Source of the DNA: Deltaproteobacteria bacterium | GTDB lineage: Bacteria; Myxococcota_A; Polyangia; JAAYKL01 | Reading direction: 5' to 3' | Length of the DNA stretch: 64,000 nucleotides | Assembly (NCBI GenBank): GCA_016935665.1 | Contig: JAFGQN010000151.1 | Location: 1-64,000 of the forward strand | Part shown: in pieces, positions 18,214 through 25,989 of the stretch | How the letters are laid out: each line of letters opens with the position of its first letter | Position numbering within the stretch: position 1 is the stretch's first letter | Made by a program: the position numbers and the translations under genes | The notes under the pieces: model-generated | The model's input: only the letters and a program-made list of their open reading frames with translations | Database searches by the model: none | What the model was told of the DNA's origin: nothing

Positions 18214-18476
18214 ACTGATTCCCCTGTTTGAGAGTGTCCCGCCAGCAACGCAGTTATCTATGATAACGTTATAAAACATTGCTGCAAAGATGCAAATGAT
18301 GACAACGCATAAACACGGTATTTAATTCCAACATTATCAAATGACGAACAGAATCGGCAATACCTCTAAACAGCCCAATGCCATTGAGTTTCCCTTTCGC
18401 TAAAAGATGCACAGACACTGGCGCTGACTTCAGAATCCTGCTAGTTTTCGGTATTCAATTTTTTTTGGAGGATACC

Positions 18477-19154
18477 ATGAAAAAAATATTGGGCGGTGTC
18501 GGTACCGCTGTGGCCGTTGTCGCTATTATTGCCTTTAAATTTCTTGCGCCTTCTGCAGAAGTCGCGGTGAAAAACGCCACTGGATCGGGCTGGGATGAAG
18601 CAAGGGACTATTTCGCAACGGAAATATCGAAACTCATGAAACCCGACTTCGAGGGTTTAGTGCTCGACGAGACGAATCAGGAAAACATCACCAATTGCAT
18701 TGTGGACAAGTCCATTAAATTTTTAAACGAAACCGATTGTTCCTATTTGTACAATACGGCCACCACGTCCGAAACGGAACACCTGGCCAATCAGGAAACG
18801 TGCCTGGCAAAAGTCAGATTTACCGAGCATCAGGAAGGGTTTCGCCTGGAGTGTCTCAAAACGTATTTGCCCAGAAGCTGGAAGCTGATGGAAAAAGTGT
18901 TCATGGGGATTTACGAGGAAGCCTACATCCGTCAGGGCATCCCAGAGGCCGAAGCAAAACAGATTGGCGAATGTATTTCCGGCAAACTTGTGGCGCTGTT
19001 CGATGGGCGCCAGTACAAACTCATCGATGATCAGTCCAGGGATGTGGAGAATCTGTTCTTTCCGGCGGATAAGTACATCCCCGATTTTGAAAAAGATGAA
19101 GAAATTGTTGTCATCCTGACCGAATGCGCGCCAAAGGATGACGCCGCAGAATAA
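18477..19154 (+). CDS. exported or membrane-anchored protein of unknown function
   Basis: 225 residues from an ATG with a good site (TTTGGAGGATACC). An N-terminal hydrophobic segment (4-24) acts as signal or anchor; no lipobox. The rest is acidic, helical and contains five spaced cysteines that could pair in the periplasm. No family recognised. It is divergent from the Ser/Thr kinase, sharing a roughly 260-base upstream region, and is followed by the trp promoter on the same strand. Confidence 0.75.
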   Translation: MKKILGGVGTAVAVVAIIAFKFLAPSAEVAVKNATGSGWDEARDYFATEISKLMKPDFEGLVLDETNQENITNCIVDKSIKFLNETDCSYLYNTATTSETEHLANQETCLAKVRFTEHQEGFRLECLKTYLPRSWKLMEKVFMGIYEEAYIRQGIPEAEAKQIGECISGKLVALFDGRQYKLIDDQSRDVENLFFPADKYIPDFEKDEEIVVILTECAPKDDAAE

Positions 19155-19179
19155 GGCAACGGGGGATTCCACAAACAGG

Positions 19180-19208
19180 TTGACATCCCAAAAAACAGGT
19201 TGTAACTT
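19180..19208 (+). promoter_or_regulatory. promoter of the trp operon
   Basis: A consensus -35 (TTGACA, 19180-19185) and a -10-like TAACTT (19203-19208) are separated by 17 bases. A 10-base direct repeat AAACAGGTTG (19173-19182 and 19193-19202, 20 bases apart) covers the -35 and the spacer and could bind a regulator. Initiation about 7 bases past the -10 would fall at or next to the A of the leader-peptide ATG at 19215. Confidence 0.7.
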
Positions 19209-19214
19209 GCGGCT

Positions 19215-19286
19215 ATGAATTTTTTGATCAACAGTTTTTGGTTTTGGCGTGGCTCAGTGAGTCAGGGCGGGCCTGTATTGCGTTAA
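19215..19286 (+). CDS. trpL: trp operon leader peptide
   Basis: A 23-codon reading frame starting MNFLINSFWFWRG and ending VLR. Two Trp codons (19239-19241 and 19245-19247) are separated by one Phe codon, which is far above chance and is the hallmark of trp leader peptides. It lies directly before an intrinsic terminator and trpE. When charged tRNA-Trp is scarce the ribosome should stall on the Trp codons, letting the region around 19266-19274 (GGGCCT) pair with the terminator's 5' arm. No ribosome site precedes the ATG and the frame is closed just upstream by TAA, so translation may start on a leaderless transcript. Confidence 0.85.
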   Translation: MNFLINSFWFWRGSVSQGGPVLR

Positions 19287-19315
19287 TCAAAAAAATTTAT
19301 TGCAACAGATTTTTA

Positions 19316-19347
19316 AAAGGCCCACCGAAACGTGGGCCTTTTTTTTT
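19316..19347 (+). terminator. trp attenuator (intrinsic terminator)
   Basis: A 10-bp stem, AAAGGCCCAC (19316-19325) with GTGGGCCTTT (19332-19341), closes a six-base loop CGAAAC and runs into nine T residues (19339-19347). The 5' arm AGGCCC (19318-19323) can instead pair with GGGCCT (19269-19274) inside the leader gene, extended by two more pairs after one mismatch; that is the antiterminator. A small hairpin GGCTC-AGT-GAGTC (19251-19263) right after the Trp codons may serve in pausing. Confidence 0.88.
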
Positions 19348-19419
19348 GTTTGAGGTATAGCGCTGTTTTTAATATCGATTTTCAGAATTCGTAAACAGCG
19401 CCACTTTTGGAGGTAAGGG

Positions 19420-20985
19420 ATGCAAGCGTACACAGTTTTAAGAGAATGTCGGTTCAGTTCGGACCCGTTTACCATTTTCTCCGCATTGACTGCGAGCCGG
19501 ACCGATGCGGTGTTGCTCGAATCCATGGACGGCAACGGGAAAAACAATGTGGCCAGTATGCTGTTTGTGCAAAACGCGGTGCGTGTGGAAGCCAGGGGAC
19601 GAATCGTTTCCATTACCGCATTGACGCCTAACGGTAAAAATGCACTCATGGCCACCCGAAATGCCCTTGGCAAACTGGCATCCATGAGCGAAACCGAATC
19701 AACACTGACGTTGACGTTTTCACAGGAGCGCCCTACGGGCGATGATTTAACGCGTATCAAGGCCGTGTATCCATCAGATGTGCTGCGCGTGCTGGTTCGC
19801 AACTGGAATCTGGGAACTGACGATAAACAGCGACGTTTGAGCTTGCCGGGGATTTTCTCGTATGATCACCTGGATCATTTCGAGGTATTGCCGGAGGCTA
19901 AAAAAGACACGCTGAATTTTGCCGATTTTGTTTTTTACCTGCCGGAAGTGGCCGTCAAAGTGGACCACGAAAAGAATTCGGCATATGTGCTCGTTCACGG
20001 TTACAATGCCACCAGCTACGATGCGCAGTACAGCGCCGATGTGGCAAGGGCCGAAGACTTCGCCCAAAAGGTTGCGGCAGTGACCCAGGAAACCAGTCAT
20101 GATTTGAAAAATCTGGCGGGTCACGAAGTGAGCATTGATGCCACTGCGGATTTAAGCGACGAGGGATATGCGGCGCTGGTGGAAAAACTGAAAAAACACA
20201 TTGTATTGGGGGACGTGTTTCAAATTGTACCTTCCAGAACATTCAGCGCGCCCTGTGCCGATGCGGCAAAGGCCTACAGCGTTCTGCGCCAGCTGAACCC
20301 CAGTCCCTACCTCTTTTACGTCAGCCACCCCGATTTTACACTGTTTGGATCTTCTCCGGAAACCAGTGTGAAGGTGGAGGGCAATCCGCTGGTGGCGTCC
20401 ATTCGCCCCATCGCCGGAACGCGTCGGCGCGGTTACCGCAAAGACGGGGTGCTCGACCGGGACCTGGATGGCCGATTGGAAGCGGAACTGAAGCTGAATG
20501 AAAAAGAACTGGCGGAGCACATGATGCTGGTGGATTTGGCGCGCAACGACGTGGCTCGGGTTTCCAAACCGGGCAGTCGCTATGTATCGCGGCTACTGGT
20601 GGCGGAACGGTATTCCCACGTGATGCACCTGGTCTCCCAGGTGGAAGGGGAACTGAAAGACGATTTGGATGCGCTGCACGCCTACCTGGCCAGCGCCAAT
20701 ATGGGCACGCTTGTGGGGTCCCCAAAAATTGAGGCCGCCAAATTGCTGCGCCTGAATGAAGAAAACAAACGCGGCCCCTATGGCGGGGCGGTGGGGTACC
20801 TGACATCAGATGGGGAAATGGATACAGCCATCATCATCCGCTCAGCGCTGGTTAAGGATAATACGGCCTATGTGCGGGCCGGTGCGGGGGTGGTGTTTGA
20901 TTCCGATCCCATGGCCGAGGCCCACGAGACCAGAGCCAAAGCCAGCGCGGTGCTCAAAGCGATTTCACTGTCGAGGGAGGTGTGA
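19420..20985 (+). CDS. trpE: anthranilate synthase component I
   Basis: 521 residues with ribosome site TTTTGGAGG. The feedback site LLES (32-35) and NPSPYLFY (293-300), which bind Trp in characterised TrpE enzymes, are conserved, so allosteric inhibition by Trp is expected. The chorismate-binding C-terminal domain is complete: IRPIAGTRRRG, DRELxAxxKxxAEH-like stretch, DLARNDVARV and GPYGGAVGYL. With TrpG it converts chorismate and glutamine to anthranilate. First structural gene of a six-gene operon controlled by the attenuator upstream; its stop is directly followed by trpG. Confidence 0.96.
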   Translation: MQAYTVLRECRFSSDPFTIFSALTASRTDAVLLESMDGNGKNNVASMLFVQNAVRVEARGRIVSITALTPNGKNALMATRNALGKLASMSETESTLTLTFSQERPTGDDLTRIKAVYPSDVLRVLVRNWNLGTDDKQRRLSLPGIFSYDHLDHFEVLPEAKKDTLNFADFVFYLPEVAVKVDHEKNSAYVLVHGYNATSYDAQYSADVARAEDFAQKVAAVTQETSHDLKNLAGHEVSIDATADLSDEGYAALVEKLKKHIVLGDVFQIVPSRTFSAPCADAAKAYSVLRQLNPSPYLFYVSHPDFTLFGSSPETSVKVEGNPLVASIRPIAGTRRRGYRKDGVLDRDLDGRLEAELKLNEKELAEHMMLVDLARNDVARVSKPGSRYVSRLLVAERYSHVMHLVSQVEGELKDDLDALHAYLASANMGTLVGSPKIEAAKLLRLNEENKRGPYGGAVGYLTSDGEMDTAIIIRSALVKDNTAYVRAGAGVVFDSDPMAEAHETRAKASAVLKAISLSREV

Positions 20986-20986
20986 C

Positions 20987-21613
20987 ATGCCGGCAAAAAA
21001 ACTAAACGTCCTGTTTATCGATAACTTTGACTCGTTCGTGTTTAACCTGGTAGACGAGTTCGAAAAAAGGGACTGCAACGTGCAGGTATGGCGAAATGAT
21101 ATTGGCGTGGCCAAAGTAAAGGAACTGTATCTAAGCCTTAGCGGTCCATCACTGGTGGTATTGTCGCCGGGACCGGGCTCTCCCAAAGATGCAGGCTGTT
21201 GTGTGGAGCTGGTGCAAAAGGAAACCGACATGCCAATTTTTGGGGTGTGCCTGGGACAGCAGTCCATTACAGAGGCCTGCGGCGGCAAGGTAGTGCAGGC
21301 AGGCGAAATCGTACACGGCAAATCGTCGATGCTGCAAATCGATGCATCGAGCGAGATGCTCAAGGGACTGCCCAATCCCCTGTCGGTAGGACGATATCAT
21401 TCCCTGATTTGCCAGGTGGATGAAACGCAGTTCAACGTGACGGCGCGCCTCGGGGATATGATCATGGCCATTGAACACCGCACACGACCCCTTAAAGGAG
21501 TGCAGTTTCATCCGGAATCGGTACTGACGCCCGAAGGGGGCATCATCATTGACAACATCATGGAATGGGCCATGGCGTATCACCAGCAGAAACATGAGGG
21601 GGGAGGCCAATGA
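20987..21613 (+). CDS. trpG: anthranilate synthase component II (glutamine amidotransferase)
   Basis: 208 residues, class I glutamine amidotransferase. Catalytic triad: Cys88 in GVCLGQQS, His175 and Glu177 in QFHPES. LSPGPGSP (59-66) forms the oxyanion strand and IDNFDSF marks the N-terminus. It supplies ammonia to TrpE; a separate TrpG and not a fusion, and not joined to TrpD. An additional function in p-aminobenzoate synthesis (PabA) is possible, as no other copy is visible. Starts one base after the trpE stop with GGGAGGTG as ribosome site, and overlaps trpD by ATGA. Confidence 0.95.
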   Translation: MPAKKLNVLFIDNFDSFVFNLVDEFEKRDCNVQVWRNDIGVAKVKELYLSLSGPSLVVLSPGPGSPKDAGCCVELVQKETDMPIFGVCLGQQSITEACGGKVVQAGEIVHGKSSMLQIDASSEMLKGLPNPLSVGRYHSLICQVDETQFNVTARLGDMIMAIEHRTRPLKGVQFHPESVLTPEGGIIIDNIMEWAMAYHQQKHEGGGQ

Positions 21614-22620
21614 AACAGTATATCGAACCGATTACCAATCGTCAGGATTTAACCGAAGCGCAGACCGCAGAGGTGTTTACGAAAATGGTGCTGGGTGAAA
21701 TGGATCCCATCGAAATATCCGCCCTGCTCATTGGACTGCGGACCAAGGGGGAATCCCCCGCCGAAATCGCCGGTGCGGCAAAAGCCTTAAGGAAATGCGC
21801 CCTGCCATTTGCGCGTCCCGATTACGAATTTGCCGATTCCTGCGGTACCGGTGGCGACGGCGCCCATACCATTAATGTTTCCACTGTCGCGGCATTGGTG
21901 GTGGCGGGAATGGGGATTCCTGTGGCCAAACACGGCAACCGGTCCATATCGTCGAAGTGCGGTTCCGCCGATGTCTTTGAAAATCTGGGCATTAAACTGG
22001 ATGCCACAGCGGCGGTGTCACGCCAGTGTCTCGATGAAGCGGGCATCTGCTTTCTGTTTGCCCCGGCATACCATGCGGGATTGCGGCATGCGGGACCGGT
22101 GCGAAAGAAACTGGGAATGCGCACCATGATGAATCTGCTGGGACCGCTGGTGTCACCGGCCGCTCCCACCTGTCAGGTCATGGGCGTCTACGATCCCGCG
22201 CTGTGCACCACACTGGCCGAGGTGTTCAATGCCCTGGGCACCAAAAGCGCACTGGTGGTCCACGGCAGCGGTTTGGACGAAATTGCCATTCACGGTACCA
22301 CCACCTGCGCGCTGTTAAACGACGGCAAGGTGACCTCGCTGGAAATCAGCCCATCGGATGCGGGATTGACCACATATTCTCTCGACGATATTCGGGGCGG
22401 AGAGCCCATGGAAAATACACAAATCGTGCGGGATATTCTAATGGGCAAAGGCAGGGAAGCCCACAACGCAGCGGTGGCCATCAACGCCGGGGCGCTGGCC
22501 TGGATATGTGGCAAGGCCGACAGTCTCAAAGCGGGAACGGCTTTGGCCATGGAAGTGATGCAAAGCGGCAAATGTATTGAGATTGTCGAGAAGTTCAAGG
22601 AGTTGAGCCATGGTGCTTAA
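21610..22620 (+). CDS. trpD: anthranilate phosphoribosyltransferase
   Basis: 336 residues, the usual family length. The PRPP-binding loop GTGGDGAHTINVSTVAA, the anthranilate-site motif KHGNRSISSKCGSADV, and LGPLVSPAAP are all present. It transfers the phosphoribosyl group of PRPP to anthranilate. The start overlaps the trpG stop as ATGA and the end overlaps the start of trpCF by 11 bases, so translation is coupled across the middle of the operon. Confidence 0.96.
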   Translation: MKQYIEPITNRQDLTEAQTAEVFTKMVLGEMDPIEISALLIGLRTKGESPAEIAGAAKALRKCALPFARPDYEFADSCGTGGDGAHTINVSTVAALVVAGMGIPVAKHGNRSISSKCGSADVFENLGIKLDATAAVSRQCLDEAGICFLFAPAYHAGLRHAGPVRKKLGMRTMMNLLGPLVSPAAPTCQVMGVYDPALCTTLAEVFNALGTKSALVVHGSGLDEIAIHGTTTCALLNDGKVTSLEISPSDAGLTTYSLDDIRGGEPMENTQIVRDILMGKGREAHNAAVAINAGALAWICGKADSLKAGTALAMEVMQSGKCIEIVEKFKELSHGA

Positions 22621-23971
22621 ACGAATTGTTGAAGACAAGCGGCTGGAATTGGATGCCAAATATCCAAGTCGCTTCATGCCATCGCTGGATGATGTGCCCA
22701 AAAGCGACCGCAGTTTCGAAGACGCGCTGCGCCAGCCGCACACGGGATATATTTTTGAGTGCAAAAAGGCGTCGCCGTCCAAAGGTCTCATTCGGGCCAA
22801 CTTTGACCCGGTGGCCATAGCCAAAGAGTACGCCAGGTTTGCAGACGCCATCAGTGTGTTGACCGACGAAAAGTATTTTCAGGGGTCGCTGTCGTACTTG
22901 ACGGCAGTACGCAATGCGGTTCCAGTGCCCGTATTGTGCAAGGATTTTTTTCTGGAGCCATTTCAGATTGTGGAGGCCCGAAAAGCGGGAGCCGATGCGG
23001 TGCTGCTGATGTTGAGCGTGCTTTCCGATGAGGAGTACGCCACGTGTTCAAAAACCGCTGCGGCGCTGCGGGTGGACATACTGACTGAGGTTCGCGACGA
23101 GGCGGAGCTGAAGCGGGCGCTGGCGCTGGGCGCCCGCATCATTGGCATCAATAACCGCAATCTGGACAACCTGAAAGTGGATTTGCACACCACCGAAGTG
23201 GTGGCGCCACTGGTGCCCAACGACAAAGTGGTCATCAGCGAGTCGGGCATTTCCACCCATGAGGATGTGCAACGGCTTTGCCACCTGGTTAATGGATTTC
23301 TGGTGGGCAGCTCGCTGATGGCGCAACAGGATATAACCCGGGCCTGCGGAGAACTGGTTTATGGCCGCGTCAAGGTGTGTGGGCTAAGGGACAACAGGCA
23401 GGCTATGGCCATCAAAGACGCCGGAGTTCGTTTTGGTGGACTGATTTTTGCTCCAAAATCCAAACGGGGGGTGAGCGTCGAAGAGGCGCATCGGGTGAAA
23501 GCCGGCGTGGCGCTGGATTGGGTGGGCGTCTTCGTGGACGCACCGCTTGAAGAGGTTGTGCGCATTGCCAAAGAATTGTCATTGTTCGCCGTCCAGCTTC
23601 ACGGACAGGAGGATGAAGCGTACGTGGTCGCGTTGCGCGAAGCGTTGCCTAAGGGTGTGGAAATCTGGAAAGCCGTGGCGGTCACCGATACCGCACCTGC
23701 AATGGACGCTTTTGGGGGCGACCGCATGCTGTTCGATGGCAAAGAAGCGGGTAGTGGCCAGCCGTTTAACTGGTCACTTCTTGGCGCTGTGGATGTGCAG
23801 CATCATATTGTAGCCGGTGGTATTGGCGCCCAGAACGCGGAAGAGGCCGCCGGGCTTGGGGCGTTTGCCCTGGATGTGAATTCGAAAATCGAACGCGCGC
23901 CCGGCGACAAGGATTTGAATAAACTTGGCAGTTTTTTAAAAGTGCTTAGAGGCCAGTCCATCGCGGGCTGA
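22610..23971 (+). CDS. trpCF: bifunctional indole-3-glycerol-phosphate synthase / PRA isomerase
   Basis: 453 residues: two TIM barrels in one chain, as in E. coli. The TrpC part (about 1-250) has [24 protein letters not shown] and SESGI. The TrpF part (about 253-453) begins KVCGLRDN, and contains [17 protein letters not shown] and [14 protein letters not shown]. The enzyme isomerises phosphoribosylanthranilate and then closes the indole ring. Separate genes are the commoner state in many deltaproteobacterial relatives, so the fusion may be a useful marker of descent. Start overlaps trpD; a 19-base gap to trpB. Confidence 0.95.
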
Positions 23972-23990: not shown

Positions 23991-25181
23991 ATGAAAGAGA
24001 GCGGTCGATTTGGCGAGTTTGGGGGCGCCTATGTGCCCCAGATTCTCTATCCGGTGCTGGAGCAACTGGAGGAACAGTTTCTGGAAGCCCGGCAGGATGA
24101 ATCATTTCAACAGGAATTGCAGCAGTTGCTCGCGGATTATGCCGGACGGCCAACGCCACTGTATCGCTGTCGCAATCTGTGCAAAGACACCAAAACCCGT
24201 ATTTATCTGAAGCGCGAGGATTTACTCCATGGTGGCGCACACAAAACAAACCAGGTACTGGGACAGGCACTATTGGCAAAACGGATGGGAAAGAGCCGTT
24301 TGATTGCGGAAACCGGTGCGGGTCAGCATGGCGTGGCCACAGCGGTGGTGGGGGCATTGTTTGGTTTTGAGACCCGTATCTACATGGGCGCCAAGGACGT
24401 GGCCAGACAACAGCCCAATGTATTTCGAATGAAAATGCTCGGCGCCGAGGTGGTGAGCGTGACCACCGGATCACAGACATTAAAGGACGCTATTAACGAA
24501 GCCATGCGCGATTGGGCGGCCAGCTACGAAACCACCCACTACATGTTGGGCACTGCCGCGGGGGCACATCCGTTTCCCACCATTGTGCGTGAATTCCAAA
24601 AAGTCATTGGCATCGAAGCCAGGGAACAGATTTTAGAGAAGGAAGGACGTCTACCCGATGCGGTCATCGCTTGCGTGGGCGGCGGCTCCAACGCCATTGG
24701 CGTGTTCCATGAGTTTATAAAAGACAATGAAGTGCAGCTGATTGGCGCCGAACCCGAAGGACTGGGCCGAGACACCGAAGAGCATGGCCTGTCGCTGCAA
24801 AAAGGAACCCCCGGAGTGCTCCATGGCGCATACACGCATATTCTGCAGGATAAAGACGGCCAGATAATCGAATCGTATTCGGTATCCGCAGGACTGGATT
24901 ACCCCGGGGTTGGACCGGAACATGTCCATCTGATGAAAACCGGACGGGCGCAATATGTGGGTGTCACCGATGAGATGGCGCTTAACGCGTTTACCGCACT
25001 GTGCCGTGAGGAAGGCATCATTCCCGCTCTCGAATCCTCCCACGCGCTGGCATACGCTATGGTGCTGGCCAACCAGGATAAGAACAAAGAACAGATTCTG
25101 GTGGTCAATCTCTCCGGTCGCGGAGACAAGGATATGGAGACGGTGGCCACTATATTTGAGGGGAGGAAAGCCAATGACTAA
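23991..25181 (+). CDS. trpB: tryptophan synthase beta chain
   Basis: 396 residues with ribosome site AAGGAGAAG. The PLP-binding Lys85 lies in [19 protein letters not shown] is the catalytic Glu region, and [10 protein letters not shown] binds the PLP phosphate. It is the canonical TrpB1 form (not the TrpB2 type), expected to pair with the alpha subunit encoded next. Catalyses condensation of indole with serine. Its last 8 bases overlap trpA. Confidence 0.97.
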
Positions 25182-25989
25182 TCGATACGACCGAATGTTT
25201 GAAAAACTGGATTCGCAAAAACGCGGCGCATTTATTCCATTTGCAGTGGTGGGCGATCCCGATATTGAAACCAGTCTGACTATTATTGAAACGTTGGTGG
25301 AAGCCGGCGCGGACGCGCTGGAACTGGGCGTTCCCTTTTCCGACCCGGTGGCGGACGGCCCCGTGATTCAAGCCGCGGTGGTGCGCGCATTGGAAGCCGG
25401 CGCCACACCGTCTCTATGTTTTGAAGTGATTCGCAAAGTGCGCGACAAGTACCCTGAAATTCCCATCGGCATTCTAACCTATTGCAATCCGGTGATAAGT
25501 GCTGGTCTCAATTCCTATTTTGAAAACATTGCCAACTCCGGAATTGATTCGGTGCTTACCGCGGATATGCCCGTGGCGGAAGCCGATGCGTATGTGGCAG
25601 CAGCAAAGGCCAACAGTGTGTTGCCCGTTTTTATTGCGCCTCCCAATGCAGATGAAAAAACCACCTTAAAAATTGCGCAATTGACAGGTGGGTACACATA
25701 TGTGGTGACTCGCAAAGGGGTGACTGGAACCGACGAAGACGTGCAAACCGGATTTTCAACAGTGATTGACGGATTAAAAAAAGCAGGTGCGCCAAAGCCA
25801 GTGGTGGGATTTGGCATCTCCAAACCTGCTCATGTGACTGCATCCATTGGCGCTGGAGCCGCTGGCGCCATCAGCGGATCGGCGGTTGTCAAAATCATTG
25901 AAGCACACCGAAACAACATTGATGAAATGAAGAGCGCCCTGAATGCATTTGTTCGGGAGATGCGTGCTGCCACGCTATGGAATAAATAA
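25174..25989 (+). CDS. trpA: tryptophan synthase alpha chain
   Basis: 271 residues. Catalytic Glu50 in [11 protein letters not shown] and Asp61 in VADGP match the Salmonella pair Glu49/Asp60; the substrate loop VTRKGVTGT and the phosphate-binding GFGISKP and GAISGSAVV are present. It cleaves indole-3-glycerol phosphate to indole for TrpB. The start ATG (25174) lies inside the end of trpB, preceded by GGGGAGGAAAG; last gene of the operon. Confidence 0.96.

Follow-up and report, generated by a model that had tools for sequence, protein, structure and literature searches.

A predicted tryptophan attenuator with a probably leaderless control peptide before the trp operon of a Myxococcota-type bacterium, and its likely counterparts in planctomycetes

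The E. coli trp leader carries Trp codons, forms 1:2, 2:3 and 3:4 helices and precedes an operon whose gene order is that of the locus described here; unlike this locus, E. coli trpL has a Shine–Dalgarno (SD) sequence and a 5′ UTR. Leader ORFs that start at the very end of the transcript are known from other bacteria. In Sinorhizobium meliloti, the 5′ end of the trpL transcript is the ATG of trpL, as related in PMC7298713 (citing Bae & Crawford, 1990), so that a leaderless ORF with Trp codons, followed by a terminator and antiterminator, precedes the trpE-type gene trpE(G) (PMC7298713). RNA-seq in Streptomyces lividans identified trpL1 (trpE) and trpL2 (trpS) as leaderless Trp leader peptides (PMC8079986), and the ilvB leader peptide of C. 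diphtheriae is leaderless as well (PMC5784534). In mycobacteria, leaderless poly-Cys ORFs act as control ORFs by attenuation, according to the account of Canestrari (2020) given in PMC9031893. With such leaders in rhizobia and actinobacteria, the arrangement considered below is thus of a known type. For Myxococcota and Planctomycetota, we found no report of a leaderless trp attenuator in the open literature, which is weak evidence, as subscription papers mostly fell outside its scope.

The window, by which we mean the whole stretch of 64,000 nucleotides analyzed, is part of an 8.16-Mb genome of metagenome type, whose nearest named relatives are metagenome-assembled genomes (MAGs) labelled Deltaproteobacteria or Myxococcota. 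Profile searches identified a complete trpEGD(CF)BA operon in it, preceded by a short ORF with Trp codons and by an intrinsic terminator, which lies between this ORF and the first gene. The features are as follows.

19180–19185, plus strand: −35 box TTGACA, read directly; TTGAC is conserved in relatives
19203–19208, plus strand: −10-like box TAACTT, weak (3/6 to TATAAT), after a 17-nt spacer
19215, plus strand: predicted transcription start, coinciding with the first base (A) of the leader ATG, placed from the −10 box, 6 nt before the ATG
19215–19286, plus strand: trpL leader ORF, MNFLINSFWFWRGSVSQGGPVLR, 23 codons, stop TAA at 19284–19286
19239–19247, plus strand: control codons TGG TTT TGG (Trp-Phe-Trp), with TGG at 19239 and 19245
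19266–19274, plus strand: region 2, GGCGGGCCT, antiterminator 5′ strand, pairing with region 3
19315–19347, plus strand: intrinsic terminator, an 11-bp stem (19315–19342) plus T tract
19318–19326, plus strand: region 3, AGGCCCACC, shared by the antiterminator (3′ strand) and the terminator (5′ arm)
19409–19413, plus strand: GGAGG ribosome-binding site of trpE, read directly
19420–20985, plus strand: trpE, anthranilate synthase component I (NF010079, 603 bits; TIGR00565, 521 bits; both over cut-off)
20810–21613, plus strand: ORF holding trpG, domain from about residue 66 (TIGR00566, 165 bits, over cut-off)
21610–22620, plus strand: trpD (TIGR01245, 401 bits)
22610–23971, plus strand: trpCF fusion (NF006945, 581 bits)
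23991–25181, plus strand: trpB (TIGR00263, 624 bits)
24955–25989, plus strand: ORF holding trpA, domain from about residue 82 (TIGR00262, 297 bits)

A 258-aa ORF without an NCBIfam match (18378–19154, plus strand) lies just upstream of the trp promoter. The locus resembles S. meliloti trpL in layout, not demonstrably in sequence family. The S. meliloti peptide has 14 residues and precedes trpE(G) (PMC7298713), whereas the window peptide has 23, with Trp-Phe-Trp, and precedes the whole trpEGD(CF)BA operon. The S. lividans leader MFAHSTRNWWWTAHPAAH differs in preceding a single trpE gene and in being actinobacterial (PMC8079986), and the mycobacterial ORFs differ in their cysteine codons and downstream operon, as far as PMC9031893 describes them.

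Orthologues were collected by TrpE searches. The attenuator is present in six genomes, labelled as four genera, namely the window's own and G001, G002, G004, G005 and G006; TrpE is 57–87% identical in the five relatives. In the TrpE tree, the six attenuator-bearing proteins of Myxococcota type form one clade (100/99). G008 and G010 lack a leader of this type and have trpE directly behind another gene. Across the leaders, F-W-[FY]-W-R and GG[CT]GGG are conserved, and the N-terminus M[NST]F is moderately so (5/6 genomes). The distance from the second Trp codon to the stop codon is exactly 39 nt in all six genomes, with peptides that vary between 23 and 25 residues. The G004 leader (L010, minus strand), MNALHANYYFGFWRDVTTAVGHSLR, lies 170 nt ahead of the trpE match; it has Gly in place of the first Trp codon but retains the second, at the usual 39 nt from the stop. 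Elsewhere in the window genome, the DNA motif for W-[FY]-W-R has four other matches; the three forward-strand ones do not resemble leaders, and one further match lies on the reverse strand. In G006, a cobalamin-riboswitch-like sequence was noticed by eye on the opposite strand, approximately 300–400 nt upstream of trpE (L008).

The sequence-only reading had placed a 23-codon peptide with two Trp codons before a terminator, and a promoter (TTGACA, 17 bases, TAACTT) whose start would fall about at its ATG, with no ribosome site. All of these parts are where it had put them, and the predicted start gains support from the six-genome comparison. Taken singly, the window promoter is weak and would not convince; the −10 boxes are poor across the genomes (mostly 3/6), and a stricter promoter scan of the window called none at the trp leader. 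The comparison settles that the layout exceeds chance. TTGAC occurs 35–37 nt upstream of the leader ATG in all six genomes, and TA at the matching −10 distance in all five plus-strand orthologues. These five also have a TTGACA/TATAAT-like pair (at least 8/12 matches) with the −10 box 3–9 nt before the leader ATG, against a shuffle expectation for such an ATG-abutting promoter of 0.19 on average (maximum 2), while other offsets gave 0–1. The sixth genome, G004, has the same promoter layout. No in-frame start lies upstream of 19215, the frame being closed by a TAA at 19203–19205. No SD sequence precedes the window ATG, and no SD-like 4-mer was found at 4–12 nt before the leader ATG in five genomes; in G004, a GGGAGG ends 1 nt before it, too close to act on that ATG, so that the relatives too have no usable SD. 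Judged from promoter position, by which a 1–3-nt UTR is indistinguishable from zero, the predicted start falls 0–3 nt from the ATG in all six genomes. We infer that transcription starts at the leader ATG and that the ORF is likely leaderless, or has a 5′ UTR of at most 1–3 nt.

One alternative accepts the attenuator but has the transcript come from upstream, from another promoter or by readthrough from the same-strand gene at 18378–19154, with the leader translated from an SD-less 5′ UTR. The weak −10 box, the result of the stricter scan and the adjoining gene on the 5′ side would suit it. We nevertheless consider it unlikely, given that TTGAC keeps its position in all six genomes despite differing upstream sequences, that no other promoter offset is enriched and that the orthologue alignment shows little conservation 5′ of the −35 box. 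In a crude scan of approximately 300 kb of the genome, promoters next to start codons were not over-represented overall; leaderless translation as a common feature of this genome is thus unsupported.

The proposed pairing of a leader segment with the 5′ arm of the terminator is likewise borne out, with GGCGGGCCT in region 2 facing AGGCCCACC in region 3. The terminator stem-loop reads AAAAGGCCCAC-CGAAAC-GTGGGCCTTTT, and the window leader RNA folds with z = −4.0. To compare the two states, for which the sequence-only reading had proposed folding, the modelled ribosome reached 12 nt past the A-site codon, and the RNA extended to the end of region 3. With the ribosome at either Trp codon, 7.2–8.9 of the nine region 2:3 pairs were predicted to form in five genomes, and the helix was also predicted in G004. 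A ribosome that has reached the stop codon covers region 2, and region 3 is then predicted to be essentially unpaired and available to the terminator. The naked RNA forms a complete terminator in every genome folded, and sequence further upstream, in most genomes including the Trp codons, sequesters region 2. Region 2 begins 17–18 nt after the second Trp codon. Prediction and conservation thus agree on mutually exclusive antiterminator and terminator helices that would be set by ribosome position. Counted on hand-cut segments (MAFFT shifted region 3 of G001 by one base), standard pairs occupy 90.7% of cells in helix 2:3 and 97.9% in helix 3:4, compared with at most 58% in slid registers. Each helix contains one compensatory change, in G006, which is carried through regions 2, 3 and 4 and turns Gly-Gly-Pro of the peptide into Gly-Gly-Phe; with six sequences, the covariation lends support but by itself is not significant (89–96 of 500 shuffles equal it). 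No known riboswitch or T-box family reached threshold in the window, and Rfam Trp_leader (RF00513) scored 21.9 bits, below its gathering threshold of 41 bits.

Taken together, promoter position, absent SD, Trp-to-stop spacing and two-state folding, all drawn from sequence and comparison, argue for ribosome-mediated Trp attenuation with a leaderless ORF or a 1–3-nt leader. The Trp attenuation reading itself is strongly supported, and we hold it highly probable that an attenuator of this kind controls trpEGD(CF)BA, with transcription starting at or a few bases from the leader ATG. In the proposed mechanism, RNA polymerase would start there and a ribosome would load on the 5′-terminal AUG and translate the leader ORF. 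Under a shortage of charged tRNA-Trp, the ribosome would stall at the Trp-Phe-Trp codons and block the pairing of regions 1 and 2, leaving region 2 free to form the antiterminator with region 3, so that transcription would continue into trpE. With Trp in good supply, the ribosome would reach the stop codon and cover region 2, and region 3 would pair with region 4 as the terminator. Readthrough in the cell would accordingly be Trp-dependent.

The leader RNA or peptide may, besides attenuation, also act in trans like S. meliloti rnTrpL and peTrpL. The leaderless build shared with S. meliloti trpL (PMC7298713) and the N-terminal M[NST]F of five of the six genomes could be read in this way, but the attenuator itself accounts for the conservation, and we regard such an added role as improbable. 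That the ORF is incidental and that some other ligand or a protein sets termination at a real terminator and hairpin is highly improbable: it could draw on the single Trp codon of G004, but F-W-[FY]-W-R is conserved, the Trp-to-stop spacing is fixed, the stop codon is sited to cover region 2 and known riboswitch families are absent at threshold.

The analysis of ribosome-mediated, leaderless attenuation was extended to trpE leaders from public genomes, comprising 33 from planctomycetes, each with a Trp-rich ORF (loci L051 and L060–L098; leader ORFs 200–510 nt upstream of trpE), and 21 from gammaproteobacteria. The planctomycete (100/100) and gammaproteobacterial (100/100) TrpE clades are separate from the Myxococcota-type clade. 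Among the planctomycetes, 30 of 33 leaders have a promoter (at least 9/12 matches) whose −10 box ends 5–10 nt before the ORF, with 0.66 expected from shuffles; the count did not require A at −10 position 2, so that TTTAAT and TCTAAT boxes are included, and the start codon of one locus (L085) was reassigned by hand to an upstream in-frame ATG. None of the 33 ORFs is preceded by an SD-like motif, and a terminator-like hairpin follows in 32 of them (7/33 in shuffles). Gammaproteobacterial leaders, treated identically, gave one abutting promoter in 21, and their promoters peak 29–46 nt upstream, where 5′ UTRs of the usual kind would put them; this contrast indicates that the method can tell a leaderless trpL from one with a 5′ UTR. 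In Phycisphaerae and other planctomycetes, leaderless trp attenuators seem to be the norm. According to a comparative study, planctomycete non-SD genes show nucleotide biases that would suit leaderless mRNA and/or ribosomal protein S1 (PMC5397173), which fits leaderless trp leaders in this group.

Similar leaders were sought before other biosynthetic genes of the related genomes. Upstream of leuA in G004 (L140, minus strand), a Leu-rich ORF ending in ALGLLSPLLLPAPSL begins 35 nt after TTGACA, and in G010 (L138, minus strand) one ending in SLGLLVIIILSCGLPGGP begins 38 nt after TTGACA and is accompanied by a terminator; both are probable leaderless leu attenuators of the Myxococcota-type family. 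In G008 (L133, minus strand), a Leu-rich ORF, MNAITTNLSFAAISLDLLLGLLGLGLAAGLCGEP, lies approximately 195 nt upstream of leuA and is followed by a terminator-like hairpin; it has no abutting TTGAC promoter. The search for ilvB leaders in these genomes gave nothing convincing.

The sequence-only reading had interpreted the locus as Trp attenuation with a leaderless control peptide, and had called this an unusual arrangement, in which 70S-type initiation could make stalling depend on different factors. The comparison supports both attenuation and a leaderless ORF well. Its view of the arrangement as unusual is right only in part: Sinorhizobium and Streptomyces have an established leaderless trpL, and mycobacteria have leaderless ORFs that attenuate. 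With trpL::egfp in S. meliloti, provision of an SD left peptide accumulation upon tetracycline unchanged (PMC7298713), so that a functional difference due to 70S-type initiation remains speculative.

What the window locus itself would provide is ordinary tryptophan feedback control; the more interesting result is the recurrence across phyla. The leaderless trp attenuator, known from rhizobia and actinobacteria, very probably extends to Myxococcota and Planctomycetota, two further phyla where leaderless RNA appears to encode the control peptide of the textbook attenuator and to serve for its translation. The trp and leu leaders of the Myxococcota family, nearly all planctomycete trp leaders examined, and those of rhizobia and actinobacteria lead us to suggest, tentatively and with some doubt, that selection has repeatedly favoured leaderless initiation at attenuators under ribosome control. 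If so, the first ribosome could load once the 5′ end emerges, and attenuation would be tied to factors that favour leaderless translation, such as IF3 or initiator tRNA levels. Whether attenuators generally use leaderless loading to couple the first ribosome to RNA polymerase thereby becomes testable.
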